A model generated the notes under the pieces. The model did not search any database. It was not told where the DNA came from and saw only the letters and a list, made by a program, of their open reading frames with translations. A stretch of 47,529 nucleotides of DNA from a virus, in the IMG/VR virus record IMGVR_UViG_3300009082_000007, positions 1-47,529 of that record; one strand, 5' to 3'. Each line of letters starts with the position of its first letter. Within the stretch, counting starts at the first letter, position 1. The position numbers and the translations under genes were made by a program. Positions 1 to 47,529 of the stretch are shown one piece after another.

Positions 1-123
1 GAGGCTGCTCCTAATTCAAGAGAAGACCTTAAGAATTTCAGAGATATTGGCTGGTTCCGATATACTGTTAGAAAAGATGCGGATGGAAAATCAATATTCT
101 TCATTGAAGAAGTTCAAAGTGAC
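1..123. repeat. Terminal direct repeat, left copy
   Basis: The first 123 bases are identical to the last 123 bases of the window. The repeat lies inside one open reading frame that stays in phase when the two ends are joined, so the simplest reading is overlap left by assembling a circular or circularly permuted genome. A true short terminal repeat of the packaged DNA is possible but would have to fall inside a virion gene. Confidence 0.95.
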
Positions 124-5546: not shown

Positions 5547-5816
5547 TCAGAATGGGGATTCTGCGTCGGCGGCAAGGATGTCATCTATTTCCTCCTCTGT
5601 TTTCGTTTGGAATTTTTCTGATCCCTTTGGTAAATTTTCGACCATAGCATGATAATTGCCCAATGCAATTTCCATGTATTCTGCCATAGCATCAATCATT
5701 GATAGATGGAATTCCTGAAGGACTTGGTTCTTCCCCCAACTCGTCTGTGATTGGAGGCGTGTCTCGAACTTCTCCTTCAGAATTCTGTTGTACTGAGCCA
5801 TTCCAATTCTGCTCAT
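5547..5816 (-). CDS. Hypothetical helical protein overlapping the helicase-like gene
   Basis: 89 residues (MSRIGMAQYNRILKEKFE...), mostly charged helix, acidic at the end (EEEIDDILAADAESPF). The ATG at 5816 has a GGGAGAAG box just upstream; a second Met lies five codons in. The first 125 bases overlap, in another frame, the 3' end of the DUF3987 ATPase gene, whose own C-terminus there is low-complexity and polar. Both frames look protein-like, so this is probably a genuine overlap. Function unknown; the position next to the replisome genes suggests a replication accessory role (inference). Confidence 0.65.
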   Translation of the reverse strand: MSRIGMAQYNRILKEKFETRLQSQTSWGKNQVLQEFHLSMIDAMAEYMEIALGNYHAMVENLPKGSEKFQTKTEEEIDDILAADAESPF

Positions 5817-7008
5817 CTTTCTTCTCCCTTTGGTTTGGTGGTATGTATTCTATCCATCTTTTGCCGGCTTCAATCATCTCTTTTGCAAGACCGGAAGTAA
5901 TAACAGCTTTTGTTATCATCTCCAATCTATCAAGAGTAACACCCCCCATATATTTTCTAACAATTTCTGCAAAGGTTACTCTTCCCTTTGCACGGAGTTG
6001 GTTTAGAATTTCCGTAACCACAATGTTGTCGTCTATTTGTGTCATGCCTCTGAAGACGCATGGCATGAGGACTTCAGTTCTGGATAGAAGTTCTAGTGCT
6101 TTATCGAAGTGTCGTACACCTATAAGCTTCGCTCCAGACTCGGACGCACTAAATATCATACTGAGTTTTAAAAGGTGCCAGCGTCTTCTCTGTTCATATC
6201 CTGCAAGGAGAGGATCCGTGAAAGCCGGATTTTTTTCTACCTCAAATACCCAGTCAATATATTTGTCTATAAAATCTTCATCCATCATGAATGCTCCATG
6301 CACTATCTTTATATTGGATAGGTCTTCAGCTAGAGCATCTCTCATCTTGGATTCTTTGGCACCAAAGAATGGTATAGGTATTATCTTCCCCTTCTGATCT
6401 GCGTAGACTAGAATCATCCGACTGGTAAGACCTCCTCCGACTGCCTCTTGTGGAAGGCTAGCTTGTATAAGGCTGGGGGTTGTGGCTCCAATAATGTTCA
6501 CCCAGACATTTGGGATATCATGAGAGCCTTTGTTCTTTGTCTCATATCTGAATCTCTTCTCACAATCGTACCACTTGCAGAGGTAGGACATGAATTCACT
6601 ATCTCTATGTCTTGTAAATACAGTGAACTCACTACTATGTATTGTGATAGCACTATCAGTACTAAGCACACCATCTAGATATGAAGATGCTGTACCTGCC
6701 TCTTCGAGACGTATAAGAAGAGCTTCCTTTGTGGTGGCATCGGCAGCAAGATTTACACCTATCTCTTGTAGGATATCGTAACCAGGCTCCATGGCAGTGC
6801 CTTTTCTCACACCACTGGGTCCAACTAGTACTATATACATATTAGGAAATATAGTCTTTACACCGAATGGTATAAAACATTTTCTTTCCATTGCAGATGC
6901 AATAGCACTTATAGCTGTCCACTCTGTGAATATGAGAGGTGATTCCACTAGCTCATTTGCATACTTTATATATGCGTCGAACCAGTCTGGAAAATGTCTA
7001 TCAGGCAT
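5692..7008 (-). CDS. DUF3987-like helicase-type ATPase
   Basis: 438 residues. The start MPDRHFPDWFDAYIKYANEL and the P-loop-like GPSGVRKGTAM (residues 63-73) are what I associate with the DUF3987 family of phage and plasmid P-loop ATPases, often found beside replication genes as primase/helicase components. A conserved segment YEQRRRWHLLKLSMIFSAS follows around residue 270. The P-loop has lysine before Gly-Thr (RKGT) instead of GKT, which I believe occurs in phage members of this family. The C-terminal 50 residues are polar and acidic. The start overlaps the end of the DNA polymerase gene by 8 bases, so the two are coupled. Replicative helicase is the most likely role, since no DnaB-type helicase is seen. 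Confidence 0.72.
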   Translation of the reverse strand: MPDRHFPDWFDAYIKYANELVESPLIFTEWTAISAIASAMERKCFIPFGVKTIFPNMYIVLVGPSGVRKGTAMEPGYDILQEIGVNLAADATTKEALLIRLEEAGTASSYLDGVLSTDSAITIHSSEFTVFTRHRDSEFMSYLCKWYDCEKRFRYETKNKGSHDIPNVWVNIIGATTPSLIQASLPQEAVGGGLTSRMILVYADQKGKIIPIPFFGAKESKMRDALAEDLSNIKIVHGAFMMDEDFIDKYIDWVFEVEKNPAFTDPLLAGYEQRRRWHLLKLSMIFSASESGAKLIGVRHFDKALELLSRTEVLMPCVFRGMTQIDDNIVVTEILNQLRAKGRVTFAEIVRKYMGGVTLDRLEMITKAVITSGLAKEMIEAGKRWIEYIPPNQREKKDEQNWNGSVQQNSEGEVRDTPPITDELGEEPSPSGIPSIND

Positions 7009-9442
7009 ATATGTCTTGGAGTTTGTTAGCTAATTCCTCCTCATCGTGGAATTCCCATCCAATGTTCTTCCAATCCTTGTAAGATCTACCAGCTTTTATT
7101 TCCACCTTCAGGTTGAAAGTTCGACCTTTCCAAGTGATTGGTTGTTCCATATTCCTTTTCACTAACATTAAAATTCTAGCATGTTGTGAAAGAGGGAGTC
7201 TGTGTGGGATCTGGAATTCTACAGAGTCATGAACTATATTAAGGAGGTACACGTCTGGCTCTGTGGATGAGAGGTACTCATATATGTATCGCCCACCCCA
7301 ATAGTTTGTGATGTGAGATTCAACGGACTGAGGAATAAATGCATATGCTTCTCTGTAAATCTGGTCGTCTAAGTCACCTAAGAATATCCTCTTATTTCCG
7401 AATGGGTCTGTGAGGCTTCTATGCTCAATCAACTCTTTCTTTACCCAATTCCAATATGGAATTATTCCAGGCGTGGAAATGTAGAAAGCTCTTACAATCT
7501 TTTGTGACTCATGCTCTTGAATTTCACAGAGATTAGCGAATGATCTAAATCCCATCCCATACTTCAAACAATGCCTAGCCTTCTTTCCCCAGAAGCGTTC
7601 ACTGAACTGACCGGAGCCTATAGCAGCAGATCCAGGTTCGTCACTAATAGCCTCATAAGGTTTGTTGAATATAGCTGACGCAGCTATTTTATGGAGGTCT
7701 AAATTCCGCTCTATAGCCTCGATGGTCATCTCATCATTGGAGATATTAGCTATGGTAACGTCATGGCTCTGCTTGAGATCCATAGAATATAAGTAGCATC
7801 CTTCATCTGGATGCATCATATTCTTAAATCTAGGATCCAAGTTCTGCATATTACCACCGGTACCGAATATAGTTTGGGAAGATGATAGTCTTCCATCGCC
7901 GGTACCTACCAGATTGTAAGATCCACGGACTTGATTGTCATCATCTATATTCATTTCTAGATAGGTGTCCTTGAACTTGTTAAGTCTACGGATCTCCAAA
8001 ATGGTTGCTGCTTCCGGTCTTCCAGGTCTGCTCTGAGTTCCACGTGCAAGTCGCTTCAAAGCATCCTTATCAACGGTTGTATTGTGTGTTGTTCGACTCT
8101 TATATGGATCTATCCCAAGAACTCCGTAGAAGTATTCCTTGAGTTGTTTGTGACTTCCAGGGTTTATATCGAATCCAACTTGGGTCTTTAGTTTTTGTGT
8201 AAGTTCAGCAACAGAAGTATCCACCTCCCGTATTGCCTCATCAATCAACCTTCTATCAATTCCAATACCATGATATTGGAGGAATATGGTGGTATTCGTG
8301 AGGGAAATCTTGTTTCTATACATCTTCCACATATCTTGTTCTTTCAATTCTCTCTCTAAAGACTTCCAAACCTCGATACAGACAGCACTATCAAGAGCGT
8401 TGTATCTCCAGAAATCCCGGTCATTGCCACCGATCTTTATATATTGCTTCCCTTCGTCTTTGTAGTATGGCTCGTTGGTGTAAATAGATGTGAGGAAGTC
8501 TAGTCCTTTTGGAAGGTCTGGGTATAGAATCCCATGAGCAACCATGGTGTCTTCCAAGTTGGCTGGAAGAATGCCGTACTTGCTGTAAAGAAAGTAGTTA
8601 TCAAAACCGGTAATGTTCTGACCAATTTTCTTTATATCCTTATTCTCCAGAATTTTAGTTATGAGAAGCCAGATATTAGTCTCTTCTTCCAAAGAATATC
8701 TATTCTTTAGACCTTCGGAGAAGGCTATACAAATGGATTGCTCTGGAGATGTAGCAAAGGAAATACAGCTAACCTCCCCACGGATAACCTCAATATCAAA
8801 AGCTACTTCCTTACAGATTTCAGGGCTTAAACCTGCAAGGAAGTTCATAACCTGGTCGTAGGTAGGTGCAAGGATTAACTCCCTTCTTGGACAGTTTATG
8901 AAGGGGGTGACGGACTCTCTTCCAACCTTTTCCAAGTCTGCAATGGTTATGAGTTGGTAGGTGGCAGTTCCACTCATCCTCTTCTCCCTCATTACAGCAG
9001 ATGGATGGATGGTTGGAATAACCTTCCGACCTGGAAGAAGTGTGGATTCTAATGTTGAACCACGATACTTCAGTATTCCAATCTTCCGTGTGAGTGCGAA
9101 TAGTGCAATCCCACCAAGAGCCACGATGACGTTGGCAGTGGATCTTTCAAGCTCATCCTTTAAAGAGTCCTCGTAGGCTTTATAGGCTGGAGTCATCTTC
9201 ACGGATGTGGGAGATAGTTTTAGGAACAAGGAGATATCGTTATTCGCAGGTCTTTCCTTAACAACATTAGTGATGTAGCAGCTAGACCGATTGAGCTTCG
9301 CGGCGTTTAGACATTCGTCTAGCATATGACCTGCAGGACCGACGAAGGGTTTGCCGACCTTTTCCTCAAATTGACCTGGGGCTTCTCCAACCAGAGCGAT
9401 CTTGGCAGAGAGGGAGCCCTCGGAGGGGATTAGGATTCTCAT
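7001..9442 (-). CDS. DNA polymerase I family (family A) with N-terminal uracil-DNA glycosylase domain
   Basis: 813 residues with three parts. Residues 1-170 resemble a family 4 uracil-DNA glycosylase: GEAPGQFEEKVGKPFVGPAG, TNVVKERPANN and TIHPSAVMREK. Residues 205-380 are a DnaQ-like 3'-5' exonuclease (AFDIEV, GQNITGFDNYFLY, YNALDSAVCIEVW). The rest is a family A polymerase: motif A SMDLKQSHDVTIANIS, motif B ARHCLKYGMGF, motif C IVHDSVEFQIP. This should be the replicative polymerase. A glycosylase-polymerase fusion is known in phage SPO1. The 5'-3' exonuclease of bacterial PolI is absent. The start lies 2 bases after the stop of the next upstream gene. Confidence 0.92.
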   Translation of the reverse strand: MRILIPSEGSLSAKIALVGEAPGQFEEKVGKPFVGPAGHMLDECLNAAKLNRSSCYITNVVKERPANNDISLFLKLSPTSVKMTPAYKAYEDSLKDELERSTANVIVALGGIALFALTRKIGILKYRGSTLESTLLPGRKVIPTIHPSAVMREKRMSGTATYQLITIADLEKVGRESVTPFINCPRRELILAPTYDQVMNFLAGLSPEICKEVAFDIEVIRGEVSCISFATSPEQSICIAFSEGLKNRYSLEEETNIWLLITKILENKDIKKIGQNITGFDNYFLYSKYGILPANLEDTMVAHGILYPDLPKGLDFLTSIYTNEPYYKDEGKQYIKIGGNDRDFWRYNALDSAVCIEVWKSLERELKEQDMWKMYRNKISLTNTTIFLQYHGIGIDRRLIDEAIREVDTSVAELTQKLKTQVGFDINPGSHKQLKEYFYGVLGIDPYKSRTTHNTTVDKDALKRLARGTQSRPGRPEAATILEIRRLNKFKDTYLEMNIDDDNQVRGSYNLVGTGDGRLSSSQTIFGTGGNMQNLDPRFKNMMHPDEGCYLYSMDLKQSHDVTIANISNDEMTIEAIERNLDLHKIAASAIFNKPYEAISDEPGSAAIGSGQFSERFWGKKARHCLKYGMGFRSFANLCEIQEHESQKIVRAFYISTPGIIPYWNWVKKELIEHRSLTDPFGNKRIFLGDLDDQIYREAYAFIPQSVESHITNYWGGRYIYEYLSSTEPDVYLLNIVHDSVEFQIPHRLPLSQHARILMLVKRNMEQPITWKGRTFNLKVEIKAGRSYKDWKNIGWEFHDEEELANKLQDIYA

Positions 9443-9673: not shown

Positions 9674-11023
9674 TTACGAATAAGATTTGTAGTTCGGTGG
9701 TTTGCCAGCCACAACTCTCTGCACAAACGCATCCTTATATTGCTGACTATTATCCCAGCCAATCCCAATCATACCAAGGTTTGCAGCTGCAAGAAGGGTG
9801 TTACCAGAACCACAGAATGGGACGGCAACTTTTATCTTACTGGATGGATTTGCAAAGGTTTGCAGAATACACTCTATCATTTCGATCGGTCTTTCTGCAG
9901 GATGCACTTTGAATTGGGGTGGAACCATGTTGTAGAGGAATGTATTCTTCATCCCTTGCTTGTTGATTTTGGAGTTGGCTTTCCTAGCGTAGAAGAAAGA
10001 CTCATAACAAGATGCAAGGAGTGTGTCCGGACGGTTGGTCTGACCTTGAGGTTTAACCCAGATTCCGGGTGTTCGACAGACTATAAGACCATGGTTCTCT
10101 ATAGCTGTCTTTATCATTTCGTAGTATTGTACAGCAAACCAGAGTATTAACCAGCCATCTTCGGAGAGTTTGGTGCTGGCTATGGATAGTAATCTATCTA
10201 TAAATTCTGAGTAGTCACTCTCCTCAACCTCCTCATAGGTTGTTATGTTTTGCACTCCAGCTGATGTCTGAGATTTTTTGTTGTGAAGAAGGTCTATTCC
10301 ATAGGGAGGATCAATCTCCAAAATGTTTATAGATTTATCCTCTACAGAAGAAAGACCTTCGAAGGCATCTCCAATGTTGAAGGCTTCCATGAGATCTTTA
10401 TGGACTTTTGGTATGTAACCAGCCTCGACTCTCTTTCTATTCTCAGATGCCTCTATTATCTTATTAGCTGCTCGGAGGACTTTAATGGCATCTTTATCTG
10501 TTTTCACCCTACTCAATGCTTGCTTCATTTCTGGAGATTCCTCCATAGCAGTTGCTAGCATGACATGAGTAGCTATTTGTTGGTGGCTCTTCCCAAGAAG
10601 TTTGGCTGTATCTCGAAGGCTGTGACCTGGAGCGCCTGGAGCTTTGGAGACCTTTGGACCTCCGGCTCTAGCCATGTAAAGATCATGGATAGCCTTCTCC
10701 AGTTTCCATCTTTCATGAAGGGATAGATCTTTACGATCTATATTCTCCGAAAGTTCCACTTCCTTCTCATCAACTTCAGTAAGGTCTCCTGGGAAGACTC
10801 TAGCTGGTATAGTTTCCATGACTAGTCTTTTGCAAGCAGCCAGACGACGACCACCGGCGAGGAGAAGGTATTTACCCCCAGAAAGTTCTTTAACAGCAAT
10901 AGGCTGGATTAGACCTCTAACCCGAATCTTTTCCGTGAGGTCTTTGATGTCTGCGTAGTCTTCTCTAGCCCTATCCGCTACGATGATGTTGGATATCTTA
11001 ATGATATCTACTAAGTTGGACAT
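9674..11023 (-). CDS. ParB-like domain fused to a DNA methyltransferase
   Basis: 449 residues. The N-terminal part is ParB/Spo0J-like: RGLIQPIAVKELSGGKYLLLAGGRRLAACKRL (quoted in parts: LIQPIAVKE, LLAGGRRLAACKRL), then an HTH-like region with LRDTAKLLGKSHQQIATHV. The C-terminal half is an amino-methyltransferase: EIDPPYGIDLL (catalytic DPPY), WLILWFAVQYYEMIK, and the SAM loop VAVPFCGSGNTLLAAANLG followed by IGWDN. Such fusions are common in phages and mobile elements. The expected Asp of the DPFxGSG loop is replaced (AVPFCGSG), while GSG is intact. It may methylate phage DNA at sites the ParB part binds. It lies 2 bases before the next gene's end, in one operon with the polymerase. Confidence 0.87.
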   Translation of the reverse strand: MSNLVDIIKISNIIVADRAREDYADIKDLTEKIRVRGLIQPIAVKELSGGKYLLLAGGRRLAACKRLVMETIPARVFPGDLTEVDEKEVELSENIDRKDLSLHERWKLEKAIHDLYMARAGGPKVSKAPGAPGHSLRDTAKLLGKSHQQIATHVMLATAMEESPEMKQALSRVKTDKDAIKVLRAANKIIEASENRKRVEAGYIPKVHKDLMEAFNIGDAFEGLSSVEDKSINILEIDPPYGIDLLHNKKSQTSAGVQNITTYEEVEESDYSEFIDRLLSIASTKLSEDGWLILWFAVQYYEMIKTAIENHGLIVCRTPGIWVKPQGQTNRPDTLLASCYESFFYARKANSKINKQGMKNTFLYNMVPPQFKVHPAERPIEMIECILQTFANPSSKIKVAVPFCGSGNTLLAAANLGMIGIGWDNSQQYKDAFVQRVVAGKPPNYKSYS

Positions 11024-13360: not shown

Positions 13361-13362
13361 TT

Positions 13363-13430
13363 GAAGGTTGCCGGGGTTTGAACCCGGAAGCATCCACTAT
13401 TCCGTGCTAGGAAATAGTTATGCCAACCTA
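13363..13430 (-). tRNA. tRNA-like gene without a D-arm
   Basis: Reading leftward there is a T-arm, CCGGG-TTCAAAC-CCCGG, closed by an acceptor stem TAGGTTG/CAACCTT (six pairs, one end mismatch). Between them only one arm fits: a 7-bp stem CTATTTC/GGAATAG with a 7-base loop CTAGCAC (U33- and A37-like positions; anticodon would be AGC), extended by GCAT/ATGC. No D-arm can be drawn and CCA is not encoded. It may be a degenerate tRNA or a tRNA mimic. It fills the gap between two protein genes of the same operon. Confidence 0.42.
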
Positions 13431-13441
13431 CCATCTCCGAA

Positions 13442-19009: not shown

Positions 19010-19104
19010 TGGGGACGGCAGGATTCGAACCTGCAAAATGGTTAGTCTGTTTCGTATGCATCCTTCGCAGACCTCCATGCGTCTTCCCATTCCGCCACGT
19101 CCCC
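19010..19104 (-). tRNA. Long tRNA-like gene with non-canonical anticodon arm
   Basis: Reading leftward: acceptor GGGGACG pairs perfectly with CGTCCCC; the T-arm GCAGG-TTCGAAT-CCTGC is perfect; the D-arm (GCG/CGC around GAATGGGAAGA) looks like a Leu/Ser-type tRNA. The middle does not give a 5-bp/7-base anticodon arm. Instead GTCTG pairs with CAGAC, and ATGG with CCAT, around an 18-base loop. Length 95 with no encoded CCA. It may be a class II tRNA I cannot fold correctly, a decayed tRNA, or a tRNA mimic. Confidence 0.55.
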
Positions 19105-21449: not shown

Positions 21450-21924
21450 CTCTGGATTTAGCCCCCGAGATTGCTGCGAGGGTTTCTGCAGCACCGGACA
21501 GAATAATGTTTCTCAAATTGATCGTTGCTCGAGCCAAAGCTTCAGGTTTCGGATTTACTACCATCTCCAAAGCAATGAGATGTGCTATGGAACAGGCTAT
21601 AACTGAAGATATCCTGTTGGCAGTTATCCGAAGTGGATCTGAAGCATCTACAACAGGTGGAAAGAGGTCGTGCATAACCATCGTTCCACCGAGAGGCATA
21701 TCTACAGACATTGTTCTTGGAGTGTCTCCTGGGGGGATTATCGATCCAATCATTTCTGTAAATACAGAAAATGGTCTGAGAATATTGTCTGTTGCCTTGT
21801 CCAGATTATGTCTGATATCTTCTTCAGACAGCTTCATTTCTGGAGGAACTCTGGATCCACCTCCATCATCGTGAAAGGTGAAGCTCTCGTCTGAAGTCGG
21901 AGAAGTGTTGTTTTCTTCAGGCAT
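21442..21924 (-). CDS. Hypothetical protein
   Basis: 160 residues. The N-terminal 30 residues are polar and probably disordered; then helices (EEDIRHNLDKATDNILRPFS) and two long helical stretches (ANRISSVIACSIAHLIALEM, LARATINLRNIILSGAAETL). Might form a membrane-associated or oligomeric helical bundle. No family recognised. Overlaps neighbours by 8 bases on each side. Confidence 0.65.
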   Translation of the reverse strand: MPEENNTSPTSDESFTFHDDGGGSRVPPEMKLSEEDIRHNLDKATDNILRPFSVFTEMIGSIIPPGDTPRTMSVDMPLGGTMVMHDLFPPVVDASDPLRITANRISSVIACSIAHLIALEMVVNPKPEALARATINLRNIILSGAAETLAAISGAKSRDA

Positions 21925-22135
21925 CTTCCTTCTCCTTCTTGTTGGGAGCCCCTGTGATGACTACAGTAATAGTGTCCGGTCTATCCGCTCCCATCACCAA
22001 TTTGGGAAGGTATATAGTGAGGTTCTCACCTTCATACCGGACTGAATGTTTGCAGTGTTTCACAACCTGCAATGTTTCCTTGTATTCCATAGGAATACCC
22101 CTTCTTACAATTTTATAGTGGACTTCAACTGCCAC
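21917..22135 (-). CDS. Small hypothetical protein
   Basis: 72 residues, mainly beta (VEVHYKIVRRGI, VVKHCKHSVRYEGENLTIYL, DTITVVITG) with a Lys/Glu tail. Overlaps the genes on both sides by 8-11 bases. Not recognised. Confidence 0.6.
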   Translation of the reverse strand: MAVEVHYKIVRRGIPMEYKETLQVVKHCKHSVRYEGENLTIYLPKLVMGADRPDTITVVITGAPNKKEKEDA

Positions 22136-22851: not shown

Positions 22852-22900
22852 AGTATTCCTCCTTTCTATTTAAACATCCAACAACATTGGTTGTAATAAC

Positions 22901-22931
22901 ATCCCTTTGACTTATTATTGACCAAAGGGAT
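22901..22931 (-). repeat. 31-bp palindrome family, copy 3
   Basis: Outer arms ATCCCTTTG and CAAAGGGAT are perfect; the inner part has diverged (ACTTATTATTGAC). It lies 49 bases upstream of the ATG at 22851 and 29 bases from the left arm of the origin-like inverted repeat. On the plus strand it is followed by TATAAA. Confidence 0.85.
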
Positions 22932-22960
22932 ATAAACCTCTTTTATATATCCGACTTCCG

Positions 22961-23294
22961 ATGTACATTTGTAGGCTTTGTAGCTATACCTGTAGGTGCC
23001 CTCCGACGATGAGGTGTATGTACAAGCCGCCAAAGGGATGTATGTAGATATGTATGTGTATATATATGAATGTGTAGATATGTCTGTCTATATATGAATG
23101 TGTGTGTATGTGTATATATATGAATACAAGTGTATTTATATATAGATCCCTTTAGTTTTTATTTTTTCTCTAACTTATAATGTACATATATACATATACG
23201 CATATACGTTTTCATGTCCCTTTGTCCGCACACACATACACCTCACCTCCTGATAGCACCTACAACCATAGCTACAAAACCTACAAATGTACAT
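22961..23294. other. Origin-like non-coding region: 61-bp inverted repeat arms around an AT-rich core
   Basis: This is the core of the 513-bp gene-free gap 22852-23364. Arm 1 (22961-23021) and the reverse complement of arm 2 (23234-23294) share three exact blocks: ATGTACATTTGTAGG, TTTGTAGCTAT and TGTAGGTGC, plus TGAGGTGTATGT at the inner end. Each arm repeats TTGTAG three times. The 212-bp core is very AT-rich, with TATATATGAAT at 23061, 23089 and 23115 and half copies of the AAAGGGAT arm near 23032, 23143 and 23216. Iterons flanking an easily melted core are the classical look of a replication origin; that function is inferred. Confidence 0.7.
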
Positions 23295-23318
23295 TATAAT
23301 AAAGAACAGGGAAAGAAT

Positions 23319-23351
23319 AAGGATTAGACGCCACCCCTGCATCTAATCCTT
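23319..23351 (-). terminator. Probable terminator
   Basis: Perfect 10-bp stem AAGGATTAGA (23319-23328) and TCTAATCCTT (23342-23351) with a 13-base loop, 14 bases beyond the stop of the small gene ending at 23365. On the minus strand it is followed by ATTCTTTCCCTG. It would shield the origin-like region from leftward transcription. Confidence 0.65.
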
Positions 23352-23364
23352 ATGGTGTTCTTAA

Positions 23365-24215: not shown

Positions 24216-24849
24216 TAGTCACCTCCATTATGGATTGTGTGTGTTTAAAAGAGCCAAGTCTTACAATCTGTGCATTTGCACAGATCCGCTTGCATTTACA
24301 TATTGTACATGCAAACCTAGTGCCAACAATCCCAAGTCCTTAAAAAACAATGGTTTACAAACATCGTGCATAAAATATATACAAATTTCCTGCCAATTTG
24401 TCATACATAAAACATACACAACCTGCCAAAATGGCAGGCATACCACAACCCATTGTATATATCCCACCTTGGATATACCACCGGTTGTGCATTGCCCCTG
24501 CCAAGCCTGCCAAATTGGCAGCTGTCATGAATAAAATATATACAAATTGTATATGGATTATATACAGGTACATAAATGTATATAAAATATACACAAGGAC
24601 AGCATTTGTATATAAAAGGCATACACGGCAATCCTCTGCACGAACAAGCACTGTGCAAATGTGCAGGTACTTGCGATCTTTCCCAAGCCTATCAATCCTT
24701 GGCTTGTCGAGGTTTTCTAGTCAAGCCAACAGATTTTAGGCACAACGAAGGATGGCGCTTGGGGGGTTGTTAGATTTAGATGTAGGGTACCCGTGCATCT
24801 ACATCATTTTCCATCCCATCTTTATGTACATATATGTACAAAGTACATA

Positions 24850-24883
24850 GATGTTATTACAGAGGGGATGTTATTACAGAGGG
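24850..24883. repeat. Tandem 17-bp direct repeat
   Basis: GATGTTATTACAGAGGG occurs twice in exact tandem (24850-24866, 24867-24883), followed by GAT. It directly precedes palindrome copy 4 and ends in AGGGGAT, close to that palindrome's arm, so it may be an extra binding site for the same protein. Confidence 0.9.
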
Positions 24884-24889
24884 GATTAT

Positions 24890-24920
24890 ATCCCTTTGTA
24901 TTATTATTGACCAAAGGGAT
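24890..24920. repeat. 31-bp palindrome family, copy 4
   Basis: Outer arms ATCCCTTTG and CAAAGGGAT are perfect; the inner part reads TATTATTATTGAC. It sits in the divergent control region, 55 bases upstream of the box of the rightward promoter, and not next to a start codon, which argues for a DNA-level role at this site. Confidence 0.87.
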
Positions 24921-24974
24921 GTGTTTTCTGAAGGAGTGTTATAGGAGAATAACAGAATAATTATAGGCACTCGG

Positions 24975-25021
24975 AATGTACATACAATTACCTTGTATTG
25001 ATAGACAAATTGTATTATATT
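24975..25021 (+). promoter_or_regulatory. Rightward promoter with AATGTACATACAATTAC box
   Basis: Box AATGTACATACAATTAC (24975-24991), one base, -35 TTGTAT (24993-24998), 17-base spacer, -10 TATATT (25016-25021). It matches the leftward promoter at 19999-20045 in box, spacing and -10. It should drive the terminase small subunit gene and the rightward arm. Confidence 0.8.
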
Positions 25022-25057
25022 GAAGGCATATATTCGTAGATTATATGGTACAATTAG

Positions 25058-41618: not shown

Positions 41619-43271
41619 ATGTGCGAGTGGCCTGAAACTGGCACTGGTGGTTCCTCTGATAAGTGGTACGTTTCCAATGATTTGACAAGACAAGAACTAA
41701 GAACTGTTCTTACTCAGCTGTATGACTGGGTGGAAGACTCTAGAGGAGATGAGGAAGCAGTATATGCTGTAACCCCATATAACCCTGCTACTGTGCTAGG
41801 TAGTTTAGAGACGTTACTTTCTACACTTGGAGGTGTTGTAAATTCTGTAGAGCCAACTGCTGTAATCACTGGACTAACAGAGGGTAAGACTTGGCTGGAC
41901 ACGAATAATATGTTTTCACCGGATAGTTGGGGTTCAGTGGCTTGGATAAATGGAGCAGTAACAGAAGCAATTACAAAAGCCTTAGGGGCATTATCTACGC
42001 TGGTAGATAACGCTGAAAGCACTGGGTCTGATGTCTCGGATGGTCTTGTACTACAAACAAGTGATGAGATACAAACATATCTTGCATCCGCCAAGGATAA
42101 AGCCAAGATAGACTTGGAAAATAAATTTCCGGAGGCACTTGGTGATGCTGAGTTGACTGGGATAAGCCTGAATGGTGATGCCGATTCTGATGCAAGTACG
42201 GATACTATGGGGTTTCTATCAGGTTTGCAAGACGATATATCTCCAGATGTTTCCACAGCAATAGGTGATTGTATCAATGCACTTTTGAATGGAACTTACA
42301 ATATAGGTTCTGTAATGACATCTGCTTTGGCAGCTGCACAGGCTGCTGTTGTGCTTGGTGTTGATACTCCAATAACAACCCTTGCTGATAATCACGAGTT
42401 GGACAATCGTGATAGGTATATGAGAGCAAGGAATAGGATTGCAGAGGGGTTTGCAGATATCGGAGCCACAAATAGTAGCGGTTTCTTTGTGGGGATGGCT
42501 CTCATCGAAGGGGAAGAAGTAAGGGAAGTTAGTAGATACTCTGCGGAGTTGCAATACAGGGTGTTCTTACAGACCTTTGAGCAGTTTGTTGGTATGTTTA
42601 ATCAGTCTATGAATACATGGTCTTCCAACTACGTAGCCCAATTTTCTTCATATGCAAGTGTTTATAGTGCAAAGACACAGGCATACTTGGAATCCTTTCT
42701 TCGTCTATTTCAACAGTGGATGTCAGCATATCTCCAAGAAGTTACAACTTATACAACTGGAGCTGATGATGTAGCGAAGAGAAGACTGCAAGCTTTTATG
42801 TCTATTCTTGGTCCTGGAGCTTCTATGGTTGATACACTTGGAGGTAGCTACTCCGAGTTTATGAAGACTATGCAGGTTTCAGCGATGCACGGTTATTCAG
42901 ATACTACAAGACTTATAGGTGAATCTTATAGTAGAATGGTGTCAGATAGAGCTCAAGCCTATAATTCTTACATAGAGAAGTATGGAGACTATGCAAGAAC
43001 TAGAATAGTAGGGCAGAAGGAGTACGTATCTGAACAGTGGGAACATGCTGTTAGAAAAAAGATGTTTCCAGGTGAAGTATTTAAGACATATGGTGCTATA
43101 TTTGCTGCAAATTCTGGAGGTTCCCCTGGTGTGTCTTCTCCACCAAAGGCTCAGACTGCTTTGAGCACTGGAATTATGGCTGCTGGAGCTTTAGGGGCAA
43201 TACCTGGTATTGGGGTACCTGCAGCATTGGGATTAGGAGCTCTGACAGCTGTAGCTTCGTACTTAACATAG
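41619..43271 (+). CDS. Virion internal/ejection protein with hydrophobic C-terminus
   Basis: 550 residues. Acidic beta/helix N-terminal region, then long helices (QYRVFLQTFEQFVGMFNQSM, AQAYNSYIEKYGDYARTRIV) and a C-terminal Gly/Ala-rich hydrophobic segment (IMAAGALGAIPGIGVPAALG LGALT, ~25 residues) likely to insert in a membrane. In the T7-like order it takes the place of gp14, the first ejected core protein. AGG in TTGGAGG precedes the ATG. Confidence 0.65.
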   Translation: MCEWPETGTGGSSDKWYVSNDLTRQELRTVLTQLYDWVEDSRGDEEAVYAVTPYNPATVLGSLETLLSTLGGVVNSVEPTAVITGLTEGKTWLDTNNMFSPDSWGSVAWINGAVTEAITKALGALSTLVDNAESTGSDVSDGLVLQTSDEIQTYLASAKDKAKIDLENKFPEALGDAELTGISLNGDADSDASTDTMGFLSGLQDDISPDVSTAIGDCINALLNGTYNIGSVMTSALAAAQAAVVLGVDTPITTLADNHELDNRDRYMRARNRIAEGFADIGATNSSGFFVGMALIEGEEVREVSRYSAELQYRVFLQTFEQFVGMFNQSMNTWSSNYVAQFSSYASVYSAKTQAYLESFLRLFQQWMSAYLQEVTTYTTGADDVAKRRLQAFMSILGPGASMVDTLGGSYSEFMKTMQVSAMHGYSDTTRLIGESYSRMVSDRAQAYNSYIEKYGDYARTRIVGQKEYVSEQWEHAVRKKMFPGEVFKTYGAIFAANSGGSPGVSSPPKAQTALSTGIMAAGALGAIPGIGVPAALGLGALTAVASYLT

Positions 43272-43317: not shown

Positions 43318-44934
43318 ATGGCTAATGGAAATACGCAGAACTTTTTAGACCCATGGTGGCTTCAACAGATGAAGTTAGGAATGTTGGGATTTCCTTATTC
43401 TGAGCAACCCGTAGATCTGAGTTTGCAGAACCAGCCGGGTTTGATGCTAAACTACATGAACCCTATACAAATGTATGGTGGTGGTAATACACCAGCTATG
43501 CCTTCTACCCCAAAACAGGCTAGCCCAGTGCATAAGTGGACATTTGAGGAAATCTTTGGTAGGAGACAAGGACCTCTAGTATCGGAGGGTACAGCTAAGA
43601 AAGGTGTAACCACACCAGCTGGGGCTCTTGGTATGCAGGCAACTCCAACTCCACCGAGCTTTGCATCTCCATCTGGAAAGAATCTCCAGATTAGTGGTGG
43701 AGGAAGTGTTACAACTCCTATAAACGCAGCCACCCTTGTTAATCCCTTTACACAGCAAGCACAAGCACCAGCGCAGGCTATTGGTGGTATTCCAATCGAG
43801 CAAGCTGTTGTTCCTGGTCAGCAGCCTACTGGAGTAGTTCCAACAAGGGAAGTGGTTGGACAACTTAATACTCCAGGTGTAGGAGGATACTCTAGTGTAG
43901 GTGGGTATCCATCACGAGTCCCAAATGCAATTACTACTCAGATAGATATTCTCAAGGGGCGACCTATACCGAATAGAAGTGGTAATGTAACTGGTGCTCA
44001 ACCACAGACACAACCAGCTGTGGATCCAATACAGGACTTTCTTGATAAGAGTTTTAGAAGACTTGAAGAAAGCACAACGCAAGATAAAGTCCCTGGTCTT
44101 CCAGGTGAAAAGCCTATTGATAAGAGCGGTCGAGGTACGTTTGCGAAGATACTTGGTGCTGGAGAGCCTGACTATAAATCCGATAAACTGAAGTTCTCCA
44201 ATGCTATGTTCCAACTTGCTGGAGCTTTCATGGGGGAACATCAAGAACATCCATTGGCGAAGCTTGCGGGTGTTGGAGCTGGCTTGACACAGAAAGGGAT
44301 TGAGAAGGCTGAGAAGACTGCAAAAGCTACGAGTATGTACAACTTACATGCTAAGATTTTATCTGGTGAGCCGGTCAATCAGGATGATATAAGTAATATG
44401 TCTGGAGAGGAAATACTCTCTGTGAGTACCCTTGCAAAGCAGGAGCGTGATAAGAAGGATGCTGCTCTTGAAAGATTGGTTACAATGATTTGGGAACAAA
44501 CAAAGGATTTGAGGGAGGAAGATCGTAATGCGAAGCTTGATAAGTTTGCTATTGATTATAAGATAGCAGAGTACGGACTGAATGTTGATGAGATAAGGAA
44601 TAGACTTGCTATCATGGATAAGACTGCTCAGGCAGACATGATGAATGCTCAGGCAAATGCCTCGTATAAACAAGGAGGTGGTAGCGGTAATATGGATATA
44701 AACGCTGCTGCCTTCCTAACTTTGAATAGCTTGGACCCAGAAGGAATAGCTGCTCTAAAGAAGAAGTCAACAATTACTGGACTATCTGCATGGGATATTC
44801 TATTCCAAGGAGCTAGTCAGGGGGCTGGTACTGATACTCTTCCGCCTGGAGTTCCACCAGGATCGGTACAAATCCAAGGTACCCAGATGTGGAGAGCCCC
44901 TGACGGTCAGACTTACGCACCACAAGGGCAATAA
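43318..44934 (+). CDS. Virion internal protein, Pro/Gln-rich N-terminal half
   Basis: 538 residues starting MANGNTQNFLDPWWLQQMKL. Residues 50-240 are rich in Pro, Gln, Gly and Thr and look disordered (TQQAQAPAQAIGGIPIEQAV); the rest is helical (NAMFQLAGAFMGEHQEHPLA, EQTKDLREEDRNAKLDKFAI). Position matches gp15-type core proteins between gp14-like and the giant protein. Start at 43318 rather than 43282 because AAGGGA from palindrome copy 8 is the ribosome binding site. Confidence 0.68.
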   Translation: MANGNTQNFLDPWWLQQMKLGMLGFPYSEQPVDLSLQNQPGLMLNYMNPIQMYGGGNTPAMPSTPKQASPVHKWTFEEIFGRRQGPLVSEGTAKKGVTTPAGALGMQATPTPPSFASPSGKNLQISGGGSVTTPINAATLVNPFTQQAQAPAQAIGGIPIEQAVVPGQQPTGVVPTREVVGQLNTPGVGGYSSVGGYPSRVPNAITTQIDILKGRPIPNRSGNVTGAQPQTQPAVDPIQDFLDKSFRRLEESTTQDKVPGLPGEKPIDKSGRGTFAKILGAGEPDYKSDKLKFSNAMFQLAGAFMGEHQEHPLAKLAGVGAGLTQKGIEKAEKTAKATSMYNLHAKILSGEPVNQDDISNMSGEEILSVSTLAKQERDKKDAALERLVTMIWEQTKDLREEDRNAKLDKFAIDYKIAEYGLNVDEIRNRLAIMDKTAQADMMNAQANASYKQGGGSGNMDINAAAFLTLNSLDPEGIAALKKKSTITGLSAWDILFQGASQGAGTDTLPPGVPPGSVQIQGTQMWRAPDGQTYAPQGQ

Positions 44935-44937
44935 CCC

Positions 44938-47529
44938 ATGCCACAAGAATACATACCTATTGATCCTAGCCGTTTAGGCGAGTTCCAAAGACCGCCTTTC
45001 TCCGAATTCATCTATGGCTTCCCAGCTGGGTATTATGGAGCTAAGAAACTGGCAGGTTTGGCTGGGATGACTATACAAGACCTAACAGGTTGGGATCTTC
45101 CTGGGGATCCAGAGGCAGTTGCTAGAAATGCAGCCGCTAAATACTTATCGTATGCTCCAACTAGAACAGATCCAGCTGCACAGTTTTATAGAGGTGGTCT
45201 ATCTGAAGGACTCACGCAGAGTACACTTGCTGGGATTCCGGGTATGGTGGCTGGTTTCTCTGTTGGAGGTCCTATAGGTGCAGGTCTTGGCTTTGCTGTA
45301 GGCGCAGGTAATGTATTTGGTCTTGCAGAATACCAGCAATTCATGGATGATTATGAAGTATCTCTGCAAAGTATGGGGATTACAGATCCGGAGGTTGTGA
45401 AGAATCTTAGGAAAGATCCAGAGATTGTGAAAGCAGCCATTACGTCGGCTCTTGTAGAGGGAGGAATGGAGGCTTTCACGGATCTTCTGCAACTTAAGAT
45501 ATTCAAACTCGCTGGTAAATCCTTAACAGAACCAATAAAGAAAGGAGCAACAGAAGCTGCTAAACGGCTTCTTCTTGGATATGTAAAAACTGCCCCAGTA
45601 GAGGTAGGAACAGAGGCTATCCAGGCAGCGACGGAGATTAAGATTCGTCAAGATGTAGGGATAGATACTGGGATAACCCCGCTTGAAGCTGCAAAGCAGG
45701 TGGTTCTTCCTGCCTTGGGACAGACACTTGGAAGAGGGGTAGGGGCTGAGTTAGCGGGAAGGTTTCTAAAGCCAGTGGCTAAACCGGAGACATTGCCCGG
45801 ACTTAAAGAAGGGGACGTAACGACTCCGAAGGAAGAAAAGCCATTTGCTGTAGGTAACATAATCATCCAGGAAGGCTATGAAGATGAAGACCTAGAAATC
45901 CTAGACACCTCAGACCCTGCCCAATTCCAGGCGAAAAGATTGAAGGATGGGGCGGTTTTTCCTGTTGGAGCCAAGACCATCCGGCATAAAGAAGATGCCC
46001 TTATTATGACAAGGGAACTTCTCCGTATGAGAATGATGAGACATCCAAAGGTTACAAGTGAACAGGTGGATGGAGTTCTTCTTTTATATGATGCCTTTGC
46101 ATATACGCACGGAATCACAACGGATGAACTTCTGAAGAATATGTATGATTGGAGTTATAAGTTTGATCCGAAGGATTTTAAAGAGATAGGTATAGCACTT
46201 GCGCAGGGTGAGCCTGATGATGTTATTTCTATGATAAAACAAGAGCTTGATGTTTCAGATGCCGAAGACCGATGGTTGTACCCTTCAACAAGAGGGGATA
46301 TAGAGATAGGAAAGCCTACGTTCCATGGAAGTCCTAGTCCATTGGAGGGAGGCAAGTTCTCACCAGATAAGATACTAACACACTTCACTGGAAAGTCATA
46401 CAACCAAGAGGAAGTGTGGGGTGTTTATCATACAGATAACTTGGGGCAGTCATTATTCTATTCGAATCTTTCTACTACAAAAGAACCGGTGCAGGAGAAC
46501 TATATATATAAGTTGAAGGTGTCTAAGGGTAGATATGTTAATTCCGATGATAAATTGAGTAGAGCTGATGAAAGTAAGATAAAGGAGATGTATCCTGACT
46601 TTAACAAGCCCGGTCGTCTTTTATCTTGGGGAGAGGCTTATCCTCATATTGGATTTGTTGCTGGGTCTAACAAAGAAGCTAGCTTGTTTTTAGATTCTAT
46701 TGGCATACATGGAATATATAGAAGTATGCCTATAAACAAGAAGAATATAGAAATAGTAACATTTAATCCTGACAGAATTGAAGTATCTAAGTCGGTCAAG
46801 TTAAGACTATCTGAACTTGTAAAGACATCTCCTCTAATTCTTCATCAGAAGGAACCTATTTGGATTTCCAAGCTTTACCAGTTTATTCTTGGAGGTCTAA
46901 TCCCGAAAGATAAATACAATCCAAACTTTGTGGCTATGGAGCTACAAAAGAGGATGAAAGAAGACGCATATAACGAAGATACAAGTCTGAAAAATGAAGT
47001 GGCATTTTATGGCTTGGATGATTGGCTGGCAAGTAAGGCGTTGAAAGGAGAAGATGTAACAAAACAAGAACTATTCCAGTGGCATTTGGATCATGCTATT
47101 CAACTTGTGGAGGTTAAAAGAGAATTACCTAAGTTCCTACAAAATGTATCAGCTCTATCATTTGATGGAGCCCTTTACGAATCTGGGATGTTTAGTGAAG
47201 ATCCAAGTATAATAGCCGGACCTGGGAAATATGCTGAGAAAATAGATAAGACGTTTGGAGGTATTAAACAAGAACAGCCAGAATTACATGCTGGCTTCAA
47301 CATCCCAGGAGAAGTAGAGGCATCTGGAGAAATCATTCTATACCTTCCAGTGTTGAAATCTACGGATACAATTCCTTCGGGACATATGGAGGGACTTAAT
47401 CTTTCTGAGGCTGCTCCTAATTCAAGAGAAGACCTTAAGAATTTCAGAGATATTGGCTGGTTCCGATATACTGTTAGAAAAGATGCGGATGGAAAATCAA
47501 TATTCTTCATTGAAGAAGTTCAAAGTGAC
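44938..47529 (+). CDS. Giant polyvalent internal virion protein, N-terminal part (continues at base 1)
   Basis: Open to the window end and continuing in frame at base 1; 2,148 residues in all. Starts MPQEYIPIDPSRLGEFQRPP, 3 bases after the previous stop. Residues 97-125 are Gly-rich and hydrophobic (GMVAGFSVGGPIGAGLGFAV), a probable membrane-active segment. FHGSPSPLEGGKFSPDKILT at about residue 462, with IYKLKVSKGRYVN and a YRSMPIN strand later, fits the ADP-ribosyltransferase-like domain found in polyvalent proteins. The next domain carries the EEVQSDW signature across the window junction. Likely ejected with the genome and acting early in the host; catalytic activity unproven. Confidence 0.82.
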   Translation, partial: MPQEYIPIDPSRLGEFQRPPFSEFIYGFPAGYYGAKKLAGLAGMTIQDLTGWDLPGDPEAVARNAAAKYLSYAPTRTDPAAQFYRGGLSEGLTQSTLAGIPGMVAGFSVGGPIGAGLGFAVGAGNVFGLAEYQQFMDDYEVSLQSMGITDPEVVKNLRKDPEIVKAAITSALVEGGMEAFTDLLQLKIFKLAGKSLTEPIKKGATEAAKRLLLGYVKTAPVEVGTEAIQAATEIKIRQDVGIDTGITPLEAAKQVVLPALGQTLGRGVGAELAGRFLKPVAKPETLPGLKEGDVTTPKEEKPFAVGNIIIQEGYEDEDLEILDTSDPAQFQAKRLKDGAVFPVGAKTIRHKEDALIMTRELLRMRMMRHPKVTSEQVDGVLLLYDAFAYTHGITTDELLKNMYDWSYKFDPKDFKEIGIALAQGEPDDVISMIKQELDVSDAEDRWLYPSTRGDIEIGKPTFHGSPSPLEGGKFSPDKILTHFTGKSYNQEEVWGVYHTDNLGQSLFYSNLSTTKEPVQENYIYKLKVSKGRYVNSDDKLSRADESKIKEMYPDFNKPGRLLSWGEAYPHIGFVAGSNKEASLFLDSIGIHGIYRSMPINKKNIEIVTFNPDRIEVSKSVKLRLSELVKTSPLILHQKEPIWISKLYQFILGGLIPKDKYNPNFVAMELQKRMKEDAYNEDTSLKNEVAFYGLDDWLASKALKGEDVTKQELFQWHLDHAIQLVEVKRELPKFLQNVSALSFDGALYESGMFSEDPSIIAGPGKYAEKIDKTFGGIKQEQPELHAGFNIPGEVEASGEIILYLPVLKSTDTIPSGHMEGLNLSEAAPNSREDLKNFRDIGWFRYTVRKDADGKSIFFIEEVQSD
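47407..47529. repeat. Terminal direct repeat, right copy
   Basis: Exact copy of bases 1-123. It sits in the giant virion protein gene, frame preserved. Taken with the left copy it closes the genome at about 47,406 bp. Confidence 0.95.

Follow-up and report, generated by a model that had tools for sequence, protein, structure and literature searches.

Replication origins are unknown for most uncultured phages, and the question addressed here is whether an inverted repeat at positions 22961-23294 of a 47,529-nt viral sequence is such an origin (IMG/VR virus record IMGVR_UViG_3300009082_000007, positions 1 to 47,529; this whole stretch is called the window hereafter). An earlier note made from the letters of this DNA had singled out the repeat as a candidate. 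Our analyses show that this 334-bp element is a DNA feature conserved at a specific position within a phage group, and we consider it fairly probable that it serves as an iteron-type replication origin of the phage.

The element is an imperfect inverted repeat with arms of 107 nt (22961-23067 on the + strand and 23188-23294 on the - strand), in which 78 of 107 positions (73%) form Watson-Crick pairs without any indel, on both sides of a 120-nt loop. Its ungapped inverted-repeat score is 63.2; the next best repeat of the genome scores 18.9, and shuffled genomes reach no more than 21.0. Self-BLAST detected it with E = 1.2e-23. The earlier note had described arms of 61 bp (22961-23021 and 23234-23294). 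Their exact blocks of 15, 11, 9 and 12 bases are all present, but the true extent is larger, as the pairing runs inward to 23067 and 23188. The genes of the window run leftward from ~24.2 kb to 4 kb and rightward from ~25.06 kb, and the element lies in a gap of 513 bp (22852-23364) within the leftward operon, past the operon's first genes. As previously described, this gap holds no convincing gene, just two 55-residue open reading frames, and the terminator expected to the right is represented by a terminator-like stem-loop at 23317-23353 (- strand), which separates the element from the first leftward genes.

Each arm harbours three inward-pointing TGTAG motifs (22970, 22979 and 22991, mirrored at 23260, 23272 and 23281), the first two of each arm being exactly 9 bp apart; the repeated TTGTAG noticed earlier is found in both arms. 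The left iterons are TTTGTAGGC (22968-22976, +), TTTGTAGCT (22977-22985, +), 9 bp past the former, and CCTGTAGGT (22989-22997, +), and they are mirrored in the same order by right iterons at 23279-23287, 23270-23278 and 23258-23266 (all -). Between them, the 212-bp AT-rich core (23022-23233) is indeed 70.3% AT, with ~76% AT in the central 120 nt, and we propose it as the unwinding region. It includes a T tract, TTTTTATTTTTT (23156-23167, +), the counterpart of an A/T homopolymer found centrally in the elements of relatives. The core had also been regarded as the iteron region on account of three TATATATGAAT copies. These are present at 23061, 23089 and 23115 (23061-23125, +) in a TATG-rich context, but the iterons are the TGTA units of the arms.

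We searched for relatives of the element. No DNA-level match to the 20-26 kb portion of the window was found among known phages, and no named phage is close; the sole near-identical contig is 100% identical to the window and hence not independent. A terminase alignment of the window and Desulfofustis phage LS06-2018-MD01 retrieved 34 IMG/VR loci, most of them at ~30-37% identity to the window and a few at 21-28%, and a ten-sequence terminase alignment yielded 80 loci at 32-39%, the identical contig excepted. We scanned loci for long ungapped inverted repeats, first in a strand-aware and then in a strand-neutral manner; in the neutral scan over 54 loci, the shuffled maxima had a mean of 15.8, a 95th percentile of 18.5 and a maximum of 20.9. 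The scans revealed two recurrent elements near the divergent switch. Of the noncoding one, we assembled a set of 22 examples with scores of at least 24.8, chosen by repeat score and position and not by iteron or homopolymer features. They come from the window, the Desulfofustis phage and loci L015, L021, L024, L026, L030, L033, L035, L055, L069, L071, L079, L085, L090, L091, L092, L096, L102, L105, L109 and L111; given the kinship of L091 with L092 and of L069 with L071, they represent fewer than 22 independent cases. At least 25 elements were identified in all, in the window, the Desulfofustis phage, IMG/VR contigs and contigs binned into metagenome-assembled genomes (MAGs). They are usually located just past the first leftward early genes, next to the early/late switch. 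The elements of different relatives are almost devoid of sequence similarity, yet their anatomy recurs.

The recurring plan consists of two inverted arrays of ~9-bp TGTA-containing iterons around a centre that is AT-rich and contains an A/T homopolymer. Base matches within the arms of the 22 elements are in excess at lag 9 (z = 6.9, reached by none of 2000 arm shuffles), and lags 4, 8 and 18 are likewise raised. The left arms of these elements contain 44 TGTA motifs, where sampling the same loci at random places predicts 4.9. Over 25 elements we counted 51 + 57 inward-pointing versus 12 + 7 reversed motifs, with the caveat that both arms of an element do not provide independent counts. Clear tandem iterons are found in L085 (ATGTTAAWS, four copies), L096 (WTTGTAGGC, three copies), L102, L125 and L127, and the L096 repeat is the window's own iteron. 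Many arms reach a C-run. Most elements have an AT-rich centre, and 14 of 25 harbour an A/T run of at least 8 nt (~0.5 expected from random windows), which is located at 0.47-0.66 of the element in all 14 cases and has T on the + strand in 12 of them. The window's own T tract is interrupted and therefore falls under that cut-off.

A held-out set comprised five of six loci from a separate contig collection, probably MAG-binned phage contigs. Three of the five (L123, L125 and L127) carry both recurrent elements at the expected places; L126 and L128 do not. The left arm of L125 has five 9-bp TGT-type repeats and L127 has five TGTA motifs; L123 has the T run and lacks TGTA. We also read the whole contigs of six loci for which no noncoding element had been listed (L119, L110, L097, L108, L051 and L041), which revealed an element in L119 and a short candidate with an A10 centre in L110. 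Additional carriers are MW202489 (L013, 1636-1848), Caulobacter phage Kuura (43046-43248) and Microcystis phage Mel-JY34 (~44116-44304 of PP438425, a position converted from the reversed locus). The control phages P744, 119X and Unity, scanned in the same way, showed nothing comparable. Persistence of the arms in close relatives, which the earlier note had set as a check, was observed in the one pair examined: L091 and L092 are ~80% identical around the element and at least 90% elsewhere, and both have kept the arms. Their cores differ by short repeat insertions, and the left arm of L092 has one extra 17-bp, iteron-like unit containing TGTATGC relative to L091.

On these grounds, a phage-encoded initiator may bind the TGTA iterons of both inverted arrays and fold or wrap the symmetric site. 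The AT-rich centre would melt at the T tract, and the phage primase and a PolA-type replisome would be loaded, possibly in both directions. We infer these steps, the start of replication and origin function itself. The window encodes its own replication genes, including a family A DNA polymerase with an N-terminal uracil-DNA glycosylase domain (7001-9442, -) and a DUF3987/phrog_14296 DNA primase (5692-7008, -), and every complete contig that bears an element and was tested encodes both PolA and primase. Both are missing from L075 and L046, for which no element was listed. The origin proposal of the earlier note is supported in part, by the recurring place, the inverted arrays of short iterons, the AT-rich homopolymer centre and the weak RNA polarity described below, and is corrected as to the iterons, which are not in the core, and to the skew, which turns elsewhere.

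There is about an even chance that these elements represent an apparently undescribed class of phage origins, defined by inverted arrays of ~9-bp TGTA iterons around an AT-rich homopolymer centre. Equally balanced is the associated view that architecture and position have persisted in a wide range of tailed phages that encode PolA and a DUF3987-type primase, with nearly wholly diverged sequences; since the anatomy is kept while the sequence diverges, a fast co-evolving initiator would be implied. If so, a signature that outlasts sequence similarity would allow origins to be predicted in many metagenomic genomes. The cultured carriers, Caulobacter phage Kuura and probably Microcystis phage Mel-JY34, make the origin reading testable.

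A literature search, which reached few subscription papers, found this arrangement nowhere described. The origins oriS and oriL of herpes simplex virus and that of SV40 have inverted initiator sites flanking an AT-rich centre, in eukaryotic viruses and with unrelated proteins, and they are comparable to the window element by analogy of layout, with no homology implied. The origins of plasmids P1, RK2, pSC101 and R6K also combine tandem short repeats with an AT-rich region, whereas the repeats of the element form two inverted arrays in a 9-bp register, and our search revealed no Rep-like gene. Plasmid iterons are usually spaced by the helical repeat (about 10.5 or 21 bp). The repeats of our elements lack such phasing, as lags 10-11 and 21 are not peaks; we therefore describe the element as working like an iteron-type origin without assigning it to the plasmid class. 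The ori of phage lambda likewise has repeated iterons that bind the initiator, adjacent to an AT-rich region that this protein opens (PMC5043065). Lambda has four 19-bp iterons inside the O gene, and its AT-rich region, 40 bp long, is on one side. In contrast, the iterons of the window are short, spaced by 9 bp and organized in two inverted arrays that lie within a noncoding gap and flank the AT-rich centre. Our search yielded neither an O-like protein nor 19-bp iterons within an O-like gene. The origin of the PLE satellite of Vibrio cholerae, with RepA iterons, is similar in that it is noncoding, belongs to a phage satellite and has iterons bound by an initiator (PMC8263062). It has three semi-palindromic repeats of ~30 bp and is different in its arrangement and sequences.

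Beyond the missing helical phasing, several observations weigh against origin function. In the window, two of three iterons are in the 9-bp register, and the overall lag-9 score is not raised. No element was detected by the ungapped scan in L041, L051, L097, L108 and L126 despite the presence of PolA and primase, and several PolA-bearing contigs are without a detectable element. The Kuura element barely exceeds its shuffles (25.1 versus up to 22.5), and that of VS-ABTNL-3 does not (21.1 versus 21.5). A further control, Gordonia phage Jamzy (L149, OR159649), has a 274-bp noncoding inverted repeat at 42971-43244, between annotated genes at 42797 and 43265, with a score of 36.7 and without TGTA. 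Long noncoding inverted repeats are therefore not confined to this group, and the repeat alone is not diagnostic. The Jamzy repeat itself is possibly an origin of another kind. A skew change had been predicted near 23.1 kb; instead, the cumulative GC skew turns near 24.5 kb, with a sign change between 24.25 and 24.75 kb at 250-bp resolution. This turn coincides with the flip in gene direction, and the element is ~1.2 kb further left. Because transcription direction alone can explain the flip, GC skew is uninformative, neither supporting nor refuting an origin. Finally, a search for an initiator through the genes beside the element gave no family match. A 57-residue protein (21917-22090, -) with a KHCKHSVRY stretch has a significant match among the relatives in L096 only, the locus that also bears the window's iteron sequence TTTGTAGG, and this protein is a possible, if weak, lead for an iteron binder.

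The element might alternatively be a regulatory hub, in which an array of regulator-binding sites near the early/late switch, symmetric as a result of DNA looping, would control the early operon and not replication. It lies within ~1-2 kb of the divergent switch, and its core contains half-sites of a 31-bp palindrome that occurs genome-wide. These half-sites, mentioned in the earlier note, are found at three places: CAAAGGGAT at 23031-23039 (+), paired across the element with 23216-23224 (-), and a third half-site with one mismatch at 23146-23154 (-). However, the element is inside the leftward operon, past the first genes, and the switch has its own repeat-rich noncoding region (24216-25057), which is a rival place for the origin or for the main promoters. 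Moreover, an AT-rich centre with a homopolymer tract suits strand opening better than it does operator arrays. We thus regard a regulatory hub as unlikely.

The full palindrome, ATCCCTTTGGTCAATWATTGACCAWAGGGAT, is present at 22901-22931 to the left of the element as had been pointed out, but this is one of nine copies in the window (5621, 13331, 20629, 22901, 24890, 26062, 32438, 38664 and 43281) and it is therefore a flanking feature that is not specific to the site. Several copies come straight after stop codons. All nine reach matrix scores of at least 19, and the next site scores 4.5. In the Desulfofustis phage, another palindrome occurs twice at similar post-stop positions, and a DNA pattern search with the window's palindrome retrieved, apart from the identical contig, unrelated contigs only. 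The switch region carries repeats of TATATACAAAT, CTGCCAAAWTGGCAG and CTGTGCAWWTGYRCAG.

A long hairpin in the early transcript, i.e., a structured RNA of ~330 nt acting as a noncoding RNA, an RNase III substrate or an attenuator, is another explanation. The predicted fold is very stable (z = -10.7 on the transcribed strand and -13.6 on the other), and the arm duplex is stronger on the early strand, both in the window (-111 versus -92 kcal/mol) and in the Desulfofustis phage (-78 versus -60 kcal/mol). These duplex energies had raised the RNA hypothesis, which was demoted when the polarity of the 22 elements proved weak against that of neighbouring stems that enclose genes. Selection on an RNA helix should keep G·U, and not A·C, mismatches on the transcribed strand. 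The gene-enclosing stems near the switch, which clearly operate at the RNA level, show such a bias (G·U to A·C, 65:17, or 75:19 once the held-out loci are included, p = 4.8e-9). The noncoding elements have a slight G·U excess (101:76, p = 0.071; 121:88 with the held-out loci, p = 0.027), far below that of the gene stems (Fisher p = 2.5e-4), and non-wobble pairs make up 58% of their mismatches, as compared with 18% in gene stems. Since the left arms are T- and G-rich, unequal drift of the two arms could generate this weak excess. In addition, inward TGTA iterons and an A/T homopolymer have no evident role in an RNA, and no Rfam family matches the element at the gathering threshold, where the window yielded a tRNA only and 14 relatives yielded nothing; low-scoring microRNA matches to TG/AT repeats were discarded as irrelevant. 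The weak strand polarity relative to gene stems therefore favours a DNA-level role, the element appearing to behave mainly as DNA, and a structured RNA is a quite improbable reading, although some contribution at the RNA level is conceivable. The polarity contrast may help distinguish DNA from RNA inverted repeats more generally.

In many relatives, a small early gene, in most cases the first leftward one, is enclosed in full, ribosome-binding site included, by a stem of 20-37 bp. Examples include L016 (128-717), L021 (5546-6064 and 6071-6340), L034 (224-822), L053 (4309-4778), L069 (4412-4836), L105 (3074-3562) and L127 (3522-4020), among others. Given the 75:19 excess of G·U among their mismatches on the transcribed strand, these stems are probably RNA structures that tie together both ends of an early mRNA. 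The first leftward gene of the window showed no such stem.

In favour of a packaging (pac) or genome-end site, the element is noncoding and usually occurs once per genome, and the terminase genes map to the same side at a distance of a few kb. Nevertheless, symmetric iterons with an AT-rich centre are atypical for pac or cos sites. The Kuura element is internal to the published record, and that phage has direct terminal repeats of 606 bp (PMC9959647), making this explanation very unlikely. Lastly, a relic of a transposable element akin to a miniature inverted-repeat transposable element, or a chance repeat, would account for terminal inverted repeats flanking a noncoding core, but it is scarcely credible given that the genome has no second copy, that shuffles never approach the window's score and that many phages harbour such a feature at this one place with no sequence in common.

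An exact 123-bp direct repeat at both ends of the window (1-123 = 47407-47529) indicates that it is probably a complete, circularly mapped genome. In addition to the polymerase fusion and the DUF3987 primase, the leftward gene set encodes a Sak4-like protein and a PD-(D/E)XK exonuclease, and the rightward set includes the terminase, a portal homologue and the capsid. The gene at 9674-11023 (-) encodes a fusion of a ParB N-terminal domain with an N6/N4 DNA methyltransferase domain. We also identified a tRNA-Ala(AGC) at 13362-13438 (-) with ARAGORN and a second tRNA-like match at 19010-19104 (-) with Rfam, neither program finding the other's.
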